A stretch of 48,540 nucleotides of DNA from the NCBI GenBank assembly GCA_018818105.1, contig JAHISK010000035.1, forward strand, positions 1 through 48,540. Reading direction: 5' to 3'. Below, piece by piece: positions 17,252-33,794 of this stretch. Below the pieces are notes generated by a model. That model had not been told where the DNA came from, searched no databases, and saw only the letters and a program-made list of their open reading frames with translations. The position numbers and the translations under genes were made by a program. Source of the DNA: Candidatus Omnitrophota bacterium. Its GTDB lineage: Bacteria; Omnitrophota; Gorgyraeia; Duberdicusellales; 4484-171. How positions within the stretch are numbered: the first letter of the stretch is position 1; each line of letters opens with the position of its first letter.

Positions 17252-17675
17252 AGTTGGGTCTTTAAAAAATTCAAGCGAGCCGCATTTAGGATTAATCCAT
17301 TATATAAAAACAAATAAGTTCACTGGAAGTAGGAATAATAAAGTGATTATAGCTTTTGACGGGGGCGTGAATTATCAAGCCCAGCGGGAAAGCGAGTTTG
17401 AAATTATCTTTAGCGTCGGGGTGAGCGCTGATGAAGTTATAAAAAGAAAAGTTGACAGCATAAAGAATAAATCCCAAATAATTGTGGTTACTGACGATAG
17501 GGAAATCAGAGATTATGTTAAATCCGCGGGCGCTTCAATAGTTAGGGTGAGTGATTTTATAACTAAAAAAAGTAAAGATAAAAGCCCTGATACTTCAGCA
17601 GATTCAGATAAAAATATCAGTTATTCTTTACAAAAGGAAATTACTGATGAGATGAGAAAGATTTGGGATAAGTAG
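17211..17675 (+). CDS. YacP-like NYN domain protein (putative ribonuclease)
   Basis: 154 aa PIN/NYN-fold protein. It starts MLVYIIDGFNLVH with the metal-binding Asp7, and carries VIIAFDGG, SADEVIKRKVD and VVTDDREIRDYVKSAGA, which provide the other acidic residues of the NYN site. The family includes YacP/Rae1, a ribosome-associated endoribonuclease of Bacillus. I chose ATG 17211 because a GGAGGG ribosome site lies 7 bp upstream and the upstream in-frame ATG gives a hydrophobic extension. The stop codon TAG is supplied by the GTAGGGGCG palindrome at 17672. Confidence 0.82.
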   Translation: MLVYIIDGFNLVHKVGSLKNSSEPHLGLIHYIKTNKFTGSRNNKVIIAFDGGVNYQAQRESEFEIIFSVGVSADEVIKRKVDSIKNKSQIIVVTDDREIRDYVKSAGASIVRVSDFITKKSKDKSPDTSADSDKNISYSLQKEITDEMRKIWDK

Positions 17676-17700
17676 GGGCGTCGCTTGTCTACGCCCGTAA
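17672..17700 (+). repeat. GTAGGGGCG palindromic repeat
   Basis: Consensus form GTAGGGGCGTCGCTTG followed by TCTACGCCCGTAA. One base differs from the copy at 33731. Its TAG is the stop codon of the NYN gene. Confidence 0.8.
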
Positions 17701-17718
17701 TGGTAAATTAAAAATGAT

Positions 17719-18483
17719 ATGGGATATATAAAATTTTTAGGAACAGCCGGGGCGAGATTTGTGATGATAAAACAGGCACGGTCATCTGGGGGAATTTGGC
17801 TTAATTATAAGTCAACAAATATTCTGATTGATCCGGGTCCGGGTTCTATCGTTAGGTGTAATGTTGCCAGACCAAAATTAGATCCGGCAGGATTAGATGC
17901 TGTAATTTTAACGCATAAACATCTGGATCATTGTGGTGATGTGAATGTCATGATCGAAGCCATGACAGATGGCGGTTTTAAAAAAAGGGGTGGTTTGTTT
18001 TTGCCTGGTGACGCTGTTGGTGAAGATGGCGTAGTTTATTCATATCATCAAAAACTTATAGAAAAAATAGAATTTTTAAAAAAAGGGAAGTTTCGCGTAG
18101 GTGATATTAAGTTCCAGGTTCCTGTTAAAAACGAGCATTCTGTTGAGACTTATGGATTAAAGTTTTTTATAGAAAAAGATATTGTGTCATTGGTTTCTGA
18201 CACAAAATATTTTGATAAGATAATAGATTTATATAAAGATTCTACCATCCTCATTTTAAACGTAGTTTTTTATCAAAAACGCGGAGAGTATGAACATCTA
18301 TGTTTAGATGAAGCGATTGATATTATTAAAAAGATAAAACCTAAAAAAGCAATTCTAACTCATTTTGGAATGAGTATGTTAAAACAAAAAACTCACCTTT
18401 TAGAGGCAAAAATAAGAAAAGAACTCAATCTAGATATTAAGTGCGCTTATGATGGGATGAGTGTAGCGATTCCTTTAAAGTAG
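17719..18483 (+). CDS. MBL-fold metallohydrolase
   Basis: 254 aa. The metal-binding motif THKHLDH gives His66, His68, Asp70 and His71; NILIDPGPGS precedes it, SDTKYFD carries a later Asp, and ILTHFGMS a C-terminal His. The layout resembles RNase Z/PhnP-like phosphodiesterases, but no specific substrate signature is visible. The TAG stop overlaps the 3' end of the tRNA-Glu gene on the opposite strand. Confidence 0.85.
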   Translation: MGYIKFLGTAGARFVMIKQARSSGGIWLNYKSTNILIDPGPGSIVRCNVARPKLDPAGLDAVILTHKHLDHCGDVNVMIEAMTDGGFKKRGGLFLPGDAVGEDGVVYSYHQKLIEKIEFLKKGKFRVGDIKFQVPVKNEHSVETYGLKFFIEKDIVSLVSDTKYFDKIIDLYKDSTILILNVVFYQKRGEYEHLCLDEAIDIIKKIKPKKAILTHFGMSMLKQKTHLLEAKIRKELNLDIKCAYDGMSVAIPLK

Positions 18484-18555
18484 CCCCAACGGGATTCGAA
18501 CCCGTGTCTCATGGATGAGAACCATGTATCCTAGACCAGGCTAGACGATGGGGCC
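18481..18555 (-). tRNA. tRNA-Glu (anticodon CTC)
   Basis: Read on the minus strand, it begins GGCCCCATCGTCTAG and ends with the T-arm CGGGTTCGAATCCCG and TGGGGCT plus discriminator A. The anticodon stem CATGG/CCATG encloses the loop TTCTCAT with anticodon CTC. The acceptor stem has a G1-U72 pair. CCA is not encoded. The 3' end overlaps the stop codon of the MBL gene, and the 5' end overlaps possible starts of the glycosyltransferase frame. Confidence 0.93.
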
Positions 18556-18610: not shown

Positions 18611-19918
18611 ATGAAAGATGGGTCAAGGGTCATGGGTCAAGGGTCATGGAAGATAAAGATGGGGCAGGGGGCATGGAAGAATAAAGTATTTATCGCGGTG
18701 GTGATAGCCGTTATGATATTTGGGATAGGAGTGCGTTTGAGTAATCTTAATGTTTCCACAAGGACGCCCGATGAAATGGTCTATACTGCTTATGCTTCCG
18801 CGATGAATGAGTTGGGCATTAAAAACTATAAAAAAGTTATTAATGAGTACAATAGTAATGAAAAGATGTGGGTGTATCCTCTCCCTGTAAGAATAGGGTA
18901 TATTTATTTATGTTCTAGGATTATGCGGTTAGTGGGGTCTAATAATGTGGAAGTATTAGCTTTGATTTCGTGTGTTAGCAGTATTTTTTCTTTATTTATT
19001 TTAGTTTTAATAGGGTTACGTTTTTTTAACCGGTGGGTAACCGTAGTCGCGTTAGCATTAGCTAGTGTTTCTCCTATGGATTTGGCTATTGCTAGGCGGG
19101 CGTGGCAGGATGGAGTTTTAGCGTTGTTTGCCGCGTTACTGATTTATATTTGTTGTGAAATCTCGTATAAACCTCGTAGTAAAGGTTGGTTTATTGTTTT
19201 TTTTCTTTTAGGTCTTTGTTGCGTGGTCATTAAGGAGACAGGTATTGTTATTTATGGGTTATGTATTCTGGGGGTGTTATGGATAACTTTAATCAAAGAA
19301 AAATCTTTCAAAAAAAGCTTATATTATGTAGTAATTCCTAGTTTTTTAGGAATAGGGATAGGCTTTTTTATAGTATCAGCGGTGTGTGGCGGATTTTTGA
19401 ATGTAATAGAGGTGGTTAAACATAGTATGGGATCGTTTAAGACCAATGAGTATGTGTTAACCTTTCATAGTGGCCCATGGTATCAGATTTTTCAGGGTTT
19501 TTTTATTTTAAGCCCAGTTACGACAATTTTAAGTTTTATGGGGATTATAGGAACAGTTTTTTTCCAAAAGGTAAGAGGCGGCATATATAGAGTAGCTATA
19601 AGTAAACAGCCGTCACGGGTAGGCATTATTTTCTTTATGATTACTTTTGTTGGGATAGTAATGGGACCAAGGCATTTCAAAAATTTTAGGTTTGTTAGCA
19701 GTATATATCCTTTCTTGTATTTAATGGCAGGGGTTGGTTGTTTGTTTATTATGCGGGTTTTAAGAGAAAAACTAAAAATACTTCCTTCTTATGTTGTAGG
19801 ATTCGGTATTATTTTAGCTGTTTTTACGGCAGTTTTTTTTGATTATCAGAATTTTAAGTCTATTTTTATTGTAAAAGAAATACCTGATTTGGCAGTTAAG
19901 CTGATAATTGATCATTAA
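18611..19918 (+). CDS. glycosyltransferase family 39 (ArnT/PMT-like) membrane protein
   Basis: About 435 aa with about ten hydrophobic segments. After TM1 the loop carries TRTPDE, the acidic motif of dolichyl/undecaprenyl-phosphate-sugar transferases of the GT39/ArnT type, followed by RRAWQDG in a later loop. It probably moves a sugar from a lipid carrier to an envelope acceptor; the acceptor is unknown. The frame is open back to ATG 18548, but that start lies inside the tRNA. ATG 18611 and ATG 18659 are better; between them the sequence is a heptamer array encoding GSRVMGQGSWKIKMGQG, so the true start may be 18659. Confidence 0.75.
   Translation: MKDGSRVMGQGSWKIKMGQGAWKNKVFIAVVIAVMIFGIGVRLSNLNVSTRTPDEMVYTAYASAMNELGIKNYKKVINEYNSNEKMWVYPLPVRIGYIYLCSRIMRLVGSNNVEVLALISCVSSIFSLFILVLIGLRFFNRWVTVVALALASVSPMDLAIARRAWQDGVLALFAALLIYICCEISYKPRSKGWFIVFFLLGLCCVVIKETGIVIYGLCILGVLWITLIKEKSFKKSLYYVVIPSFLGIGIGFFIVSAVCGGFLNVIEVVKHSMGSFKTNEYVLTFHSGPWYQIFQGFFILSPVTTILSFMGIIGTVFFQKVRGGIYRVAISKQPSRVGIIFFMITFVGIVMGPRHFKNFRFVSSIYPFLYLMAGVGCLFIMRVLREKLKILPSYVVGFGIILAVFTAVFFDYQNFKSIFIVKEIPDLAVKLIIDH
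18620..18682. repeat. nine-unit heptamer array (GGGTCAA words)
   Basis: Units gggtcaa, gggtcat, gggtcaa, gggtcat, ggaagat, aaagatg, gggcagg, gggcatg, gaagaat. It lies at the 5' end of the glycosyltransferase gene; the same GGGTCAA word is found inside hisF. Confidence 0.85.
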
Positions 19919-20033: not shown

Positions 20034-20867
20034 ATGTTGGCAAAGAGAATTATTCCCTGTTTAGATATAAAGGAAGGTAGAGTTGTAAAAGGGGTAAATT
20101 TCCTTAATTTGAGGGATGCTGGAGATCCAGTAAAAAACGCTCAGTTTTATGAAAAAGAAGGCGCTGATGAGTTAGTTTTTTTGGATATTACCGCTAGTAT
20201 TCAGCGGCGGTCAACAACGATAGATTTAGTTAAAAGAGTAGCGGCAGTTGTGTTTATGCCTTTTACTGTGGGTGGCGGAATAAGAGGGGTTAGCGATATA
20301 CGAGATATTCTTTTAGCCGGAGCGGATAAAGTTTCGCTAAATACAGCGGCTGTGAAGAACCCGGAAATCATTGAAAAAGGAGCGTCTGTTTTCGGCAGTC
20401 AGTGTATAGTAGTTGCCATAGATGCGAAAAGAAAGGGTCAAGGGTCAAGGGTCAAGGGTCAAGGAAGAAAATACGGAGGAACAAAGATTTATGGTCTTTG
20501 TCGTTTGACTGCTGCGAGTAAATGGGAGGTTTATATTAATGGGGGGCGAACGCCTACGGGGTTGGATGTAATAAAGTGGGCTAAGCAGGTAGAGAAGTTA
20601 GGTGCCGGGGAGATTCTTCTTACGAGCATGAATTATGACGGTACTAAAGACGGATATAATTTAGAGTTGACTCAGGCTGTGGCGGCAGCTGTAAAGATTC
20701 CTGTAATCGCGTCGGGAGGCGCTGGAAAATTAAAACATTTTTATGATGTATTCAAAAATACTCGCGCTACAGCAGCGTTAGCAGCGTCTATTTTTCATTT
20801 TCGCCAGATTCGTATTAAAGAAATAAAGAATTATCTTGAAGAAAAAGGAATTGAGGTGAGGTTATGA
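20034..20867 (+). CDS. hisF: imidazole glycerol phosphate synthase cyclase subunit
   Basis: 277 aa, longer than the usual ~253. A (beta/alpha)8 barrel making IGP and AICAR with ammonia from HisH. The start [11 protein letters not shown] is the family N-terminus, with catalytic Asp11, and VVAIDAKR carries catalytic Asp130. The extra length is an insertion right after residue 133, encoded in part by four perfect gggtcaa heptamers (residues about 135-145, [11 protein letters not shown]), before [14 protein letters not shown] resumes. hisH is not in the window. No ribosome site is visible. It overlaps hisI by 4 bp. Confidence 0.95.
20435..20469. repeat. heptamer array inserted in hisF
   Basis: Four perfect gggtcaa units (20435-20462) and ggaagaa. 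Read in frame, it lies in the loop after catalytic Asp130. Confidence 0.9.
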
Positions 20868-23529: not shown

Positions 23530-25698
23530 ATGATTAAACGAGTTGATCTGAAATTAAGATTGTTAGTGATTTTAGGGTTGGTGGTTTTTAGTATATTTTA
23601 TGTTTTTCCTTTCGAGAAAAATATAAATTTAGGGTTAGATTTAAAAGGTGGTATGTATGTTTTGTTGAGAGCTGATACTTCCGCCATTCCTTCCGATAAA
23701 CGCGGTGCCGCGATGAGTGGTACCATTGAAAAAATAAGAAATAGAGTCGATGACTATGGCGTGAAAGAAATATCTATGCAGGTTCAAGGTAAAGACTCTA
23801 TTCTTGTTCAAGTGCCTGGAGTTGTAGATCGGACGATTGTTGATAAGCTAAAGAAAGTAGGAAAATTAGAGTTTAAGTTGGTAGAAGAAGATTCCGATAA
23901 GCTTATTGCTGCTTCCGATGGTAATGTTCCTCAAGGGTATGAACTGAAAAAATTTAGGGATTCGTCTATACTAATAAATAATGAGCCGTCACTAACTGGC
24001 GCCGATTTATCCGAAAGCCATACAGGCGTGGATTCGTTAGGGTTGTCGGCTGTGGATTTATGGTTAAGCGGTGAAGGTAGAAAAAAATTTTCTAAAGTAA
24101 CCCAAGATAATGTTGGTCGGCAGTTGGCAATATTATTAGATGATAAAGTCATAAGCGCGCCTAATATTAGTGAACCCATAACCGGCGGTCAGGCCAAAAT
24201 TACGGGCAATTTTTCTTCTGATGAAGCAAAAGCAATGGTCTCAGTATTAAATTCCGGCGCGTTGCCAGTTCCTTTAGTTGTTGAAGAAGAAAGAAGCGTG
24301 GGTCCGCTTCTTGGGTCTGATTCTATAGAGAGAGGAATTAAGTCTATAATTTTAGGTGCTGGCACAGTTATCGCTTTTATGTTAATTTATTATCTTTTAG
24401 GCGGTATTATTGCTGTAATTTGTATAGTATTGGATTTGCTTTTTATTATTGCCGGATTACACCTTTTTAGAGGAACGCTGACATTACCAGGAATTGCCGG
24501 CATGATTCTAACTTTAGGGATGGCCGTTGACGCTAACGTTTTAATCTTTGAGCGGATAAGAGAAGAGTTGAACGCGAAAAAACCGTTAAGTATAGCTGTT
24601 AAAAACGGGTTTGATAAAGCTAAGCGTACTATTATTGATGCTAATATTACAACATTAATCGCGGCGGTATTCCTTTTTATTTTTGGTACCGGGCCTATAA
24701 GGGGGTTTGCTACAACGTTGTCTTTAGGTATTATTGCCAGTATTTTTACCGCGGTTTTCGTGGGGCGGACAATTTTTTCTTGTCTTTTGGAGCTTAAAAT
24801 AAAAAAGTTCCCTATGCTACGCCTTTTTCAAACTTCAAATATAAATTTTGTAAAATTACGTAATATTTGTATTATTATTTCGTTAATTGTGATTATCGTG
24901 GGTATGGTGAAATTTTATTCCCGTATTGATAATATTTACGGGATAGATTTTAAAGGTGGTCAGATCTTAGAGTATAAATTAACTCCTTCTCCTGATATCG
25001 AAAACGTAAGGGCGGTTTTATCAGCAAATGATTATGGCGATGTGGCTATTCAAGAATTCAACGATATTGATGGCGGCATAATGATTAGAAGTAAATCAGA
25101 TATTGTTGATAACATTAGCCGGATTTTAAGGAGTAAATTTGATCAGGTAGAAGATTTAAAAGTTACTACTGTAGGGCCTGCCGTTGGTAAAGCATTGAAG
25201 CATAAAGCATACCTCGCGATATTTCTTTCTCTTATAGGAATACTTTTTTATGTTGCCATTCGGTTTAAGCATTTTGATTTTGCTTTCGCGGCGGTTATCG
25301 CGTTGTTTCATGACGTTATTATAAGTTTAGGGTTCCTTGCTTTTTTTGGATATGAGATAAACCTTTTGATTATAACGGCGCTGTTGACTATTGCCGGATA
25401 TTCTATAAATGATACTATTGTAATTTATGACCGTATACGAGAGATTTCTCCGCGGTTTCATAAGTTATCTTTACGCGAAATAATAAATATGGCTTTAAAC
25501 GGTACGCTTTCTCGTACTATTGTTACTTCATTGACTACAATTCTGGTAGTCATCGCTATGTATTTATTAGGAGGCCAGGCTTTAAAAGGGTTTGCCTTTA
25601 CTCTTTTAGTAGGGTTTTTAGCGGGAACGTATTCTTCTATCTACATCGCATCTCCTTTAGTATTATTATTTAGAAAATCCCATCTGCATACGAAATAA
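23530..25698 (+). CDS. secDF: fused protein translocase SecD-SecF
   Basis: 722 aa with both halves in one chain. The SecD half (about 1-430) has LGLDLKGGMYVLLRAD, the P1 periplasmic part with IRNRVDDYGVKE, and GMAVDANVLIFERIREEL. The SecF half (about 431-722) has GIDFKGGQILEYKL, VGPAVGKAL and AGYSINDTIVIYDRIRE. The conserved Asp/Arg pairs for proton flow are visible in both TM4-like motifs. It uses the proton gradient to pull exported proteins. Fusion is known in some lineages, whereas two separate genes are more common in Gram-negatives. Confidence 0.95.
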   Translation: MIKRVDLKLRLLVILGLVVFSIFYVFPFEKNINLGLDLKGGMYVLLRADTSAIPSDKRGAAMSGTIEKIRNRVDDYGVKEISMQVQGKDSILVQVPGVVDRTIVDKLKKVGKLEFKLVEEDSDKLIAASDGNVPQGYELKKFRDSSILINNEPSLTGADLSESHTGVDSLGLSAVDLWLSGEGRKKFSKVTQDNVGRQLAILLDDKVISAPNISEPITGGQAKITGNFSSDEAKAMVSVLNSGALPVPLVVEEERSVGPLLGSDSIERGIKSIILGAGTVIAFMLIYYLLGGIIAVICIVLDLLFIIAGLHLFRGTLTLPGIAGMILTLGMAVDANVLIFERIREELNAKKPLSIAVKNGFDKAKRTIIDANITTLIAAVFLFIFGTGPIRGFATTLSLGIIASIFTAVFVGRTIFSCLLELKIKKFPMLRLFQTSNINFVKLRNICIIISLIVIIVGMVKFYSRIDNIYGIDFKGGQILEYKLTPSPDIENVRAVLSANDYGDVAIQEFNDIDGGIMIRSKSDIVDNISRILRSKFDQVEDLKVTTVGPAVGKALKHKAYLAIFLSLIGILFYVAIRFKHFDFAFAAVIALFHDVIISLGFLAFFGYEINLLIITALLTIAGYSINDTIVIYDRIREISPRFHKLSLREIINMALNGTLSRTIVTSLTTILVVIAMYLLGGQALKGFAFTLLVGFLAGTYSSIYIASPLVLLFRKSHLHTK

Positions 25699-25729
25699 AC
25701 TGTGGTGTTTTTTCCATTATTCGAGGTGG

Positions 25730-25913
25730 TTAAAGAGATAACAAAAATAGCCCTTTTGCTTTGCGTATGAGTCCTAAAACCATATTGATAGTGAAAGAGC
25801 ATAATAATCAAAGCAAAAGATGCCGCGGTTCAACCGATATAAAATCGGCCTCACGCGCGGATATCCATCCGGACTCAAGACGTGCGCAAAAGAGATTTTT
25901 GTTATCTCTTTAA
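25730..25913. repeat. large multi-hairpin inverted-repeat element A
   Basis: A perfect 19-bp outer stem (25730-25748 with 25895-25913) encloses an 11-bp stem CTTTTGCTTTG/CAAAGCAAAAG (25753-25763 with 25809-25819), a small hairpin CCGAT/ATCGG (25834-25848) and a GCGC-bounded hairpin (25855-25887). The element fills most of the 25699-25962 spacer before the mfd-like gene. It could be an RNA structure or a non-autonomous mobile element; its outer arms resemble those of the element at 28893. Confidence 0.7.
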
Positions 25914-25962
25914 TTATGCCAGAGGTTTTGTATATTTTTGATAGAATGGAACCTATCGTATC

Positions 25963-27858
25963 ATGGAAGTTTTTAATACCCTTAAAATTTATATTCATAA
26001 GAAAATTTCTCTGGAAGAAGTTAATAGAACGCTTATAGAGTTAAAATATAAGCGTGTTAATCAAGTTTTAGAGGAAGGGGATTTTTCTGTTCGCGGAGAT
26101 ACTCTAGAAGTTTTTCCTGTGAATTTTAGTTTGTCGTTAAGAGTGGAATGGGAGTTTGATGTTGTTGGAAAAATTTATAGTTTTGATAAAATTCTAAACA
26201 AGAAAGTAACCGATTATGAGTTTCTTATTGTTATTCCCTATATTAAAAAAGTAAAACGGTACGCGGGGGATGATTTTCCTATAGACGCTATTTTACGTAT
26301 AAAAAAAGGCGATTACGTTGTTCATAGTCGCTATGGTATTGGTCAGTTTAAGGGAGTTAAGAAGTTAACTGTAAGAGACAGGTCAGATTTTTATTTTGAG
26401 ATAGAATATGACAGACAAGATAAAATTTATGTGTCTAAAGAAGAAGCCCATTTAATTCAAAAATATACTAGTTTTTCCGCTAAAACGCCTAAGCTTACGC
26501 GGTTAGGCACGAAAGAATGGTCAAAAATTAAAGTAAGGGTAGAGGAGGGAATAAAAAAGTTAGCTTTACAGCTTTTAAGAATTCAAGCTCAAAGGAAGGT
26601 AATCGCGGGTATTAAGTTTTCTCACGACAGCGATTGGCAGAAAAAATTTGAAGCTGATTTTCCTTATACAGAGACTCAAGATCAGCTTAAGGCAACGGAT
26701 GAAACTAAAAAAGATATGGAACAGCCTAATTGTATGGATAGGCTAATTTGCGGCGATGTGGGCTATGGTAAAACCGAAGTTGCTATGCGCGCTGTTTTTA
26801 AGGCTGTTTCCGACGGCAAACAAGTAGCGTTTTTAGTTCCTACAACGATTCTGGCGTATCAGCATTATACTAATTTGTTTAAAAGGTTAAAGGCATTTCC
26901 TTTTTTTGTGGAGATGTTATCGCGGTTTAGAACACAAGGTGAACAGATAAATATTATAAAGAAGTTGAATGAAGGCAAAATTGATATTGTAGTTGGAACT
27001 CATAGACTTTTATCCGGTGATGTGGCTTTTAAAGATTTAGGGTTGCTTATCATTGATGAGGAGCATAAGTTTGGGGTTGAGCATAAAGAAAGGGTGAAAA
27101 ATATAAAAGTAGGGGTTGAAGTATTGACGTTAACGGCAACTCCTATTCCTCGTACTCTTTATATGAGTTTAGTGGGCCTTAAAAATATCTCTTTGATAAG
27201 AACTCCTCCGGCACAGCGGGTAGCGGTAAAAACAAAAGTTGTTGAGTTTTCTCCGAAATTCTTGAAAGAAGTAATTTTAAAGGAAGTTGATAGAGGAGGA
27301 CAAGTTTTTTTTATTCATAACCGTATTGAAAGTATAGATAAAGTAGCTGGTATTTTTAAAAAACAGCTACCGAAAGAAGTAAGGATGGCAGTAATTTATG
27401 GAAGGTTATCCAGCCGTACAATAGAGAAAGTCATGCTGGATTTTATTGAACATAGGTTGGATGTGTTACTGTCAACAGCTATTGTTGAATCAGGTATTGA
27501 CATTCCTTGCGCTAACACTATTATAATTAACGACGCGCATCGGTTTGGATTAGCGGATTTACATCAGTTGAGGGGTAGAGTTGGCCGGCTTAATATTCAA
27601 GCCTATGCTTACTTGGTTGTACCTAAAATGGAGAGTATTTCTACTTTGGCAAGGAATAGACTCTCTATGATTGAAGAATTTTCTCATTTAGGGGCAGGGT
27701 TTGATGTCGCGATGAGTGATTTGGAGTTAAGAGGCGCCGGTAATATTTTGGGCAAAGAACAGCACGGATTTGTCTGGATGGTAGGATTTGATTTATATTG
27801 CCGTCTCATGAAGAAAGAGATAGAATATCTGAAGCAAGCTTTTAGGATAGAAACATAG
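25963..27858 (+). CDS. mfd: short Mfd-like DNA translocase (lacks N- and C-terminal domains)
   Basis: 631 aa against about 1,100-1,150 for full Mfd. It starts in the UvrB-homology module (FSVRGDTLEVFP, 41-52), then a CarD-like RNA-polymerase-interaction domain (IKKGDYVVHSRYGIGQFKGV, 113-132), then the RecG-like motor with Walker A GDVGYGKT (264-271), DEEH (365-368), TATPIPRTLYMS, and RGRVGR and LRGAGNILG near the end. It stops after YCRLMKKEIEYL, where full Mfd would continue into the regulatory D7 domain. The missing N-terminal part carries most of the UvrA-binding region. No upstream remnant is visible; the spacer is a hairpin element. Confidence 0.85.
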   Translation: MEVFNTLKIYIHKKISLEEVNRTLIELKYKRVNQVLEEGDFSVRGDTLEVFPVNFSLSLRVEWEFDVVGKIYSFDKILNKKVTDYEFLIVIPYIKKVKRYAGDDFPIDAILRIKKGDYVVHSRYGIGQFKGVKKLTVRDRSDFYFEIEYDRQDKIYVSKEEAHLIQKYTSFSAKTPKLTRLGTKEWSKIKVRVEEGIKKLALQLLRIQAQRKVIAGIKFSHDSDWQKKFEADFPYTETQDQLKATDETKKDMEQPNCMDRLICGDVGYGKTEVAMRAVFKAVSDGKQVAFLVPTTILAYQHYTNLFKRLKAFPFFVEMLSRFRTQGEQINIIKKLNEGKIDIVVGTHRLLSGDVAFKDLGLLIIDEEHKFGVEHKERVKNIKVGVEVLTLTATPIPRTLYMSLVGLKNISLIRTPPAQRVAVKTKVVEFSPKFLKEVILKEVDRGGQVFFIHNRIESIDKVAGIFKKQLPKEVRMAVIYGRLSSRTIEKVMLDFIEHRLDVLLSTAIVESGIDIPCANTIIINDAHRFGLADLHQLRGRVGRLNIQAYAYLVVPKMESISTLARNRLSMIEEFSHLGAGFDVAMSDLELRGAGNILGKEQHGFVWMVGFDLYCRLMKKEIEYLKQAFRIET

Positions 27859-29086: not shown

Positions 29087-30019
29087 ATGAAAAAAGTAAT
29101 TATTACTAGTGGTGATCCGGCTGGGTGTGGTCCTTATATCACGTTGGAAGCCATAAATCTTTTGCGAAGGCAGAAAATTGATTTTTTTGTTGTAGGAGAT
29201 AGAACAATTTTAGAGAAATTACCGCTTTATGAAAAGATGAATAAAAGATTTAATCTGGTAGATGTCGATACTAAAGGCATTACTAAATTAACTAAGGGTA
29301 AAATATCTAAATTGGGGGGGAGAGCTAGTTTAAATTATATAGATAGAGGCTTGCTTTTGGCGCGAGAGGCAAACATAAAACGGATAATTACCGCTCCGGT
29401 TTCTAAAGAAGCGGTTAAATTGATAAATCTTAAGTTTGTTGGTCATACGGAGTATTTAGCTCAATATTTCGGAGTTAAAAATTACGCAATGATGATGGCG
29501 TCTTCAGTATTAAGGGCGGTTCCTTTTAGCCGGCATATTCCTTTGAGAGAAGTTTCTGCCGCTATCAAAAAGAAAGATATTCTAGATACTGTTTCTTTAG
29601 TGTACACTTCTTTAAAAGATAAGTTTAATATTAAAAATCCCAGAATAGTTGTCGCGTCTTTTAATCCCCACGCCGGTATTAATACTTTTTTAGATAAAGA
29701 GGAAAAAGAGATTGACGCGGGATTACGGTTGTTCAAAGAAAAAATCTATGGACCGTTGCCTGCTGATACTATTTTTACTCTTCATAATTTAAAGAATTTT
29801 GACTGTGTGATTTGTCCCTATCATGACCAGGCAATGATACCTTTTAAGCTGCTAGCCTTTAAGAAAGGGGTTAACCTTACCTTAGGGTTGCCGATAATAC
29901 GTACATCGCCGGATCACGGAGTTGCGTATGATTTAGTGGCGAAAGGTAAACGTCCCTTTGCTACCTCAATGGTTGAAGCGATTAAATTAGCAATAAAAAT
30001 CAATCCTGTAGGGGCGTAG
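29087..30019 (+). CDS. pdxA: 4-hydroxythreonine-4-phosphate dehydrogenase
   Basis: 310 aa. It oxidises 4-phosphohydroxy-threonine in the DXP-dependent pyridoxal phosphate route. Motifs: SGDPAGCGPYITLEA at the start, ITAPVSKEAV, VGHTEYLA with metal-binding His, FNPHAGIN, CPYHDQAMIPFKLLAF, and RTSPDHGVAYDLVAKG. All are in order. The last residues (NPVGA) and stop codon come from an inverted copy of the GTAGGGGCG palindrome at 30008. Confidence 0.95.
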   Translation: MKKVIITSGDPAGCGPYITLEAINLLRRQKIDFFVVGDRTILEKLPLYEKMNKRFNLVDVDTKGITKLTKGKISKLGGRASLNYIDRGLLLAREANIKRIITAPVSKEAVKLINLKFVGHTEYLAQYFGVKNYAMMMASSVLRAVPFSRHIPLREVSAAIKKKDILDTVSLVYTSLKDKFNIKNPRIVVASFNPHAGINTFLDKEEKEIDAGLRLFKEKIYGPLPADTIFTLHNLKNFDCVICPYHDQAMIPFKLLAFKKGVNLTLGLPIIRTSPDHGVAYDLVAKGKRPFATSMVEAIKLAIKINPVGA

Positions 30020-30036
30020 GCAAGCGACGCCCCTAT
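30008..30036 (-). repeat. GTAGGGGCG palindromic repeat, inverted orientation
   Basis: GTAGGGGCGTAGGCAAGC then GACGCCCCTAT. The GCAAG loop is the complement of the CTTGC loop of other copies. It supplies the last PdxA codons and stop. Confidence 0.75.
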
Positions 30037-30060
30037 GATAAATTACGATAGAGGTTGGTA

Positions 30061-33730: not shown

Positions 33731-33759
33731 GTAGGGGCGTCGCTTGCCTACGCCCGTAA
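33731..33759 (+). repeat. GTAGGGGCG palindromic repeat
   Basis: GTAGGGGCGTCGCTTG then CCTACGCCCGTAA, nearly identical to the copy at 17672. In the argJ-argB spacer. Confidence 0.85.
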
Positions 33760-33794
33760 TAATTCTAAAATTATTTTAGAAAAAGAAGAGCAGT

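Follow-up and report, generated by a model that had tools for sequence, protein, structure and literature searches.

A MITE-like interspersed palindromic repeat as the probable identity of a hairpin between secDF and mfd in an Omnitrophota genome

Introduction

A 187-nt MITE of Microcystis aeruginosa PCC 7806, which PMC11448079 describes as having the ITR GGCTCTTCG, 8-nt repeats and a stem-loop, is attributed in that account to ISL3. The BOX and RUP sequences of Streptococcus pneumoniae, as presented in PMC3049150, are small, folded, interspersed palindromic repeats that are thought to be mobilised by resident IS and are co-transcribed. The same account gives ERIC and Correia sequences as intergenic palindromic repeats in operons, with orientation-dependent effects on mRNA stability. 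In the split ribosome-binding sites of T4 gene 25 and gene 38, according to PMC3014915, a hairpin lies between the Shine-Dalgarno sequence and the AUG.

Here we analyze a window, by which we mean the whole stretch of 48,540 nucleotides from a Candidatus Omnitrophota bacterium, in which a 184-base palindrome sits between secDF and mfd (Table 1). In our reading, to which we assign a probability of about 0.8, a MITE-like interspersed palindromic repeat has multiplied within this Omnitrophota lineage, and the palindrome forms the hairpin core of one of its old copies (type A). The observations behind this assignment are the many copies in the host and the finding of none in relatives, a core shared by two types (A and B), ISL3 termini and 8-bp duplications in type B, resident ISL3 transposase sequence, a strong conserved fold, and a site between co-directional genes. 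Such an origin would account for the hairpin without a new RNA or a gene-loss event.

Table 1. Positions of the putative type A copy, its parts and its neighbors in the window.
Feature	Position	Strand	Remark
Hairpin core of repeat copy A (the element of the initial annotation)	25730..25913	+	
Outer stem, 5' arm, 19 bp	25730..25748	+	
Outer stem, 3' arm, 19 bp	25895..25913	+	
Second stem, 5' arm CTTTTGC	25753..25759	+	pairs with 25886-25892; copies show compensatory GC-AU changes
Second stem, 3' arm GCAAAAG	25886..25892	+	
Third stem, 5' arm TGAGTCC	25768..25774	+	pairs with 25871-25877
Third stem, 3' arm GGACTCA	25871..25877	+	
Degenerate left terminal-repeat-like GGTGTTTTTTCC, tentative left element end	25704..25715	+	best register agrees with the ISL3 terminal repeat at 7/12 letters; weak when the window copy is taken alone
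Degenerate right terminal-repeat-like TAGAATGGAACC, tentative right element end	25942..25953	+	8/12 letters match
AGGTGG, Shine-Dalgarno-like, conserved in A copies	25724..25729	+	immediately 5' of the hairpin
ATG, conserved in A copies	25916..25918	+	immediately 3' of the hairpin; 40-codon frame, out of frame with mfd
secDF	23530..25698	+	upstream neighbor
Short mfd	25963..27858	+	downstream neighbor; UvrB_inter, CarD/RID and helicase domains; no TRCF domain

Results

Fold and covariation of the hairpin core

The core folds as RNA with a predicted energy of -62.2 kcal/mol, compared to -32.7 +/- 4.0 kcal/mol in 200 dinucleotide shuffles (z -7.37), none of which is equally low. The DNA fold of 25704-25953 has a z of -5.26 and the type B fold a z of -3.1; strong palindromic secondary structure, as expected of MITE-like repeats, is thus present in both types. 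The 19-nt arms of the outer stem are 100% complementary, bearing out the perfect outer stem that the initial annotation had described. That annotation also placed three separate inner hairpins within the stem. Small terminal hairpins do exist (two in the consensus), but the minimum free energy fold and the alignment consensus agree on a single long interrupted hairpin that ends in them. The first of the annotated inner hairpins, CTTTTGCTTTG/CAAAGCAAAAG, is an alternative fold that is perfect in the window copy only; its pair 35-83 is formed in one of 17 aligned copies, and none of its pairs shows a compensatory change in that alignment.

Across the same 17 copies, 93.5% of the cells in the consensus structure pair. 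Doubly changed cells number 17, compared to 7.1 in shuffles (0/500 as high), a count for which the control for relatedness is imperfect and in which most double changes split B and one A copy from the remaining copies. Counted by pair, double changes are unremarkable (6 pairs versus 4.1 in shuffles; 62/500), and the pair-type count shows no rise over shuffles. In these alignments, covariation supports one long interrupted hairpin. The paired columns of type A diverge less than the unpaired ones (7.8% versus 15.6%, permutation p 0.0014), whereas type B shows no such difference (7.0% paired versus 4.8% unpaired, p 0.82). Because of this contrast, type A may be under constraint and not simply decaying. 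If that holds for the old copies, they would offer a natural setting in which to test how inserted elements persist within operons.

Copies and distribution of the repeat family

A BLAST search with positions 25725-25918 against the genome of origin returned 13 near-full matches, 12 of type A and one of type B. The 12 full-length A copies have a mean pairwise identity of 88.4% (range 82-94%), and mean identity within type B is 94.4% over five full cores. The two types are 77.9% identical over the core, with type B lacking the terminal hairpin. A search with the B consensus yields up to 19 B loci in the host genome, although the true number is possibly lower because 10 of these are cut by contig ends. 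Homologous structures, on whose existence elsewhere the proposal of the initial annotation hung, are therefore present in the same genome (12 copies of type A and up to 19 loci of type B). Both types are short (184-250 bp), non-coding and present in many copies in one genome. Indels within the family are not multiples of three, and internal deletions are tolerated. We rejected a protein-coding interpretation of the core, since indels of 1 and 2 nt among the copies disrupt its frame. Two B copies are arranged head to tail on one contig (G000:C57, 18309-18583), separated by a few bases, as though one had inserted beside the other.

A known structured RNA (a riboswitch, tmRNA, SRP, RNase P or a piece of a group II intron) would also explain so strong a fold. 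We consider this highly improbable for an element that occurs in dozens of copies beside unrelated genes and that withstands non-triplet indels and internal deletions. An Rfam search of the whole window at the gathering threshold left the element unmatched, with a tRNA-Glu (18481-18555) as the sole match.

A covariance model built from the 17 copies finds the family in one of 58 genomes, the host alone, and in none of the 57 relatives. BLAST with the A consensus likewise finds it in one of 37 genomes of the host's family (the host, and none of the 36 others), a survey spanning 26 genera in which the host's genus is represented once. A longer window query brings three of the 58 genomes past E 0.001, the two non-host matches being short (26 and about 35 bases). 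A pattern scan allowing up to three mismatches (<=3) revealed no hairpin-less version of the flanks, with AGGTGG directly joined to the ATG motif, and no viral contigs with the 23-base core pattern were found.

ISL3-type ends and target duplications

The host genome contains ISL3-family transposase sequence (PF01610, best E 3e-49); four of the five matches are above the cut-off, all of them fragments. The resident ISL3 element has the ends GGTTCTTTCTTAATTAATGTGG. B copies start with GGCTCTTTCTTA and end with TAAGAAAGAACC or a close variant, and these termini correspond to the ends found next to the transposase gene of the resident ISL3 element. All six B copies that have both ends display a perfect 8-bp target duplication (AATTATTG, AAAATATC, AAAATAAT, CTAAAATA, TTACTATT and AAATAAAA), while a seventh internal copy, L204, has lost its left end. 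Given the ISL3 terminal inverted repeat and the perfect 8-bp duplications, type B is most likely a MITE whose mover is the ISL3 transposase; on sequence evidence it counts as an ISL3-type MITE.

These features bear on how the family has moved. The segment had originally been interpreted as a structured RNA or a folded single-strand mobile element. A folded element of mobile type, with homologues, agrees with our results, but single-strand transposition is unsupported because the B branch carries hallmarks of double-strand DDE (ISL3) transposition, namely TIRs and 8-bp duplications. An IS200/IS605-type single-strand element or an integron attC-like site would be compatible with the folded palindrome, the orientation bias and the lack of a clear target duplication in type A. 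Either is very unlikely in view of the TIRs and 8-bp duplications of the sister branch, and the copies are dispersed over contigs by housekeeping genes instead of forming a cassette array.

The ends of type A are degenerate, and matches to the ISL3 repeat exceed those in shuffles when the 12 copies are pooled: the terminal-repeat match sum is 96 in the left flanks (81.2 +/- 3.1 in shuffles) and 88 in the right flanks (76.7 +/- 2.9). In the window copy, the matches (7/12 and 8/12 letters) are no better than those of its own control windows, and no direct repeat longer than 6 nt occurs at the place expected for an 8-bp target duplication. Sequence homology places the window copy in the repeat family, as an old member, and we make no claim that it passes the ISL3 tests on its own. 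Direct repeats of at least 9 nt flank 3/12 A copies, compared to 3/132 mismatched flank pairs; of these three, one falls within a different dispersed repeat and the other two are highly A+T-rich, and we regard them as suggestive without accepting them as target duplications. Similarity between A copies ends about 15-30 nt outside the core, and that of their flanks drops to background within 20-40 nt of it. Since it fades so near the core, type A may have had different ends or another transposase.

Other repeats were encountered in the course of this analysis. Immediately upstream of a truncated ISL3 transposase frame, a segment of roughly 250 bp (L055, G000:C1, 717-966) has ISL3-type ends and no A or B core; it may represent a third type of MITE or an ISL3 copy that has undergone internal deletion. 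A dispersed palindrome, GTAGGGGCGTCGCTTGCCTACGCCCGTAAT, occurs in the window at 17672-17701, 30008-30037 and 33731-33760, and a related sequence, GGTAGGGG, is found on both sides of A copy L005. The window also contains tandem repeats of the GGGTCAAGGGTCATGG type within open reading frames (18620-18656 and 20435-20471).

Genomic placement and flanking motifs

All 12 A copies lie between two co-directional ORFs, and 11 of them are sense to both (one-sided binomial probability of at least 11/12, 0.003, calculated by hand); the neighbors in this count and in that for type B are mechanical ORFs. Pfam matches support the genes on both sides of nine copies (window, L002, L005, L006, L008, L009, L010, L011 and L012), on one side only of L004 and L007, and on neither side of L003, with the upstream gene of L006 being the gene scanned as the downstream gene of L002. 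At L011, the frame on the downstream side extends into the element. The sole antisense copy, L012, has as its neighbors the gene for a HisH-type glutamine amidotransferase and a histidine-biosynthesis (hisA-type) gene. The HisH-type gene at this locus (794-1479) is split into two frames, one of 146 aa and one of 71 aa, close to a short tandem repeat that encodes RRQKTEDRRQKTED. Among the 18 B loci counted (L207, one of the 19, is omitted), 11 are sense, 6 antisense and 1 mixed, so that the orientations of the two types are not clearly different.

Most sense A copies have an AGGTGG-like motif on the 5' side and an ATG on the 3' side, directly outside the core. Antisense L012 has neither, and the ATG is absent from its position in L003, L008 (CTG) and L011. 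This arrangement raises the alternative that type A has been co-opted and that the transcribed hairpin works in the operon mRNA, for example as a split ribosome-binding site. A possible version, drawn by analogy with T4 genes 25 and 38 (a precedent presented in PMC3014915), has the closed stem bring AGGTGG and ATG within a few nucleotides of each other. The sense placement of 11/12 copies, the bordering motifs and their absence from the antisense copy, the conservation of stems over loops in type A only, and the excess of doubly changed cells would all suit co-option. We nevertheless consider it unlikely. The SD-like bases are 15-69% unpaired in the predicted folds of the nine copies with the motif, being mostly paired in several; the window copy has them base-paired to the region of the ATG. 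Three copies, as listed above, lack the ATG at that position, and the mixed orientation of type B leaves the contrast with type A unclear. The frame opened by the ATG also ends no nearer the start of the next gene than other frames do. It ends within 11 nt of the gene start in 5/7 ATG copies (the in-frame copy L002 excluded); translational coupling from this frame to the next gene is unsupported, because another frame scores 6/8 over all eight ATG copies.

A stronger form of the argument would have old ISL3-type MITE copies kept almost only in the sense orientation between operon genes because the hairpin closes a split ribosome-binding site, thereby keeping up translation and transcription through the insertion as a self-carried anti-polarity device. 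This is a speculative extension to which we give slightly less credence than to co-option in general.

Mfd in the host and its relatives

The mfd gene in the window encodes a product of 631 aa, whose closest named records are mostly from Omnitrophota MAGs (66-71% protein identity). The initial annotation had linked the element to the loss of the N-terminal half of Mfd, with insertion accompanying or causing that loss. The element does adjoin a short mfd, but element-free relatives share the short form. An Mfd-type match (identity >=45%) is present in 47/57 relatives, with the other 10 having RecG-like matches only in our reading of the lower-identity rows. Wherever a relative's mfd is uncut by a contig end, the open frame spans 595-696 aa and the element is absent (42/42). 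SecDF is encoded upstream of mfd in 26 of the 29 relative loci examined, with a gap of at most 129 nt in 24 of these 26 and overlapping genes in 8; SecDF runs straight into mfd there. Comparison with relatives makes the short Mfd the rule without the element and speaks against an insertion-linked loss, a scenario to which we attach almost no probability. As the gene comparison indicates, the element did not cut mfd, and the short Mfd, being shared by relatives that lack the element, predates the insertion.

The Omnitrophota Mfd (window 25963-27858; relatives L083-L120) is short at both ends throughout the sampled class, lacking both a C-terminal TRCF domain and any Pfam domain ahead of UvrB_inter. 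The TRCF domain (PF03461) was found in 0/58 genomes, whereas the control finds it in 10/14 named genomes. We take the missing parts to be the UvrA-binding module and the C-terminal autoinhibitory module. A paper search found no literature on Mfd in Omnitrophota, and the loss of both modules in this group is worth a separate study.

Discussion

The analysis documents a MITE-like family and an ISL3 partner for Omnitrophota; paper searches, partly too broad for a strong negative, found no such pair described there. We propose that an ISL3-type transposase, working in trans and on double-stranded DNA, also moved an ancestor of type A. The insertion of one copy between secDF and mfd would have placed it where co-transcription of the two genes can run through it, and its terminal repeats and target duplication would have decayed since. 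In mRNA, the element would form one long hairpin between the secDF and mfd cistrons, allowing read-through transcription with a mild effect on the message. In this model its present effect is most likely passive, as a hairpin in mRNA stability or processing or as an insulator between secDF and mfd.

Among the known systems, the T4 gene 25 and 38 sites share with type A a hairpin that separates Shine-Dalgarno and AUG (PMC3014915). Those sites, however, are 22-27 nt and experimentally shown in that account, whereas the A element is about 190 nt and the resemblance is geometric only. The Microcystis ISL3-type MITE, as PMC11448079 describes it, is similar in size, stem-loop fold, an ITR starting GGCTCTT and 8-nt direct repeats, and it too has a resident ISL3 transposase with the same ends; the likeness is one of features and not of compared sequences. 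Its copies are identical and young in that description; the copy in the window, by contrast, is old, its ends have decayed and it has no target duplication. BOX and RUP, in the terms of PMC3049150, are likewise small, tightly folded, interspersed palindromic repeats, a likeness drawn from their description; they differ from the window element in their host and, for BOX, in a modular architecture. ERIC and Correia sequences, as that source portrays them, differ from the window element in sequence but resemble it in being intergenic palindromic repeats inside operons.
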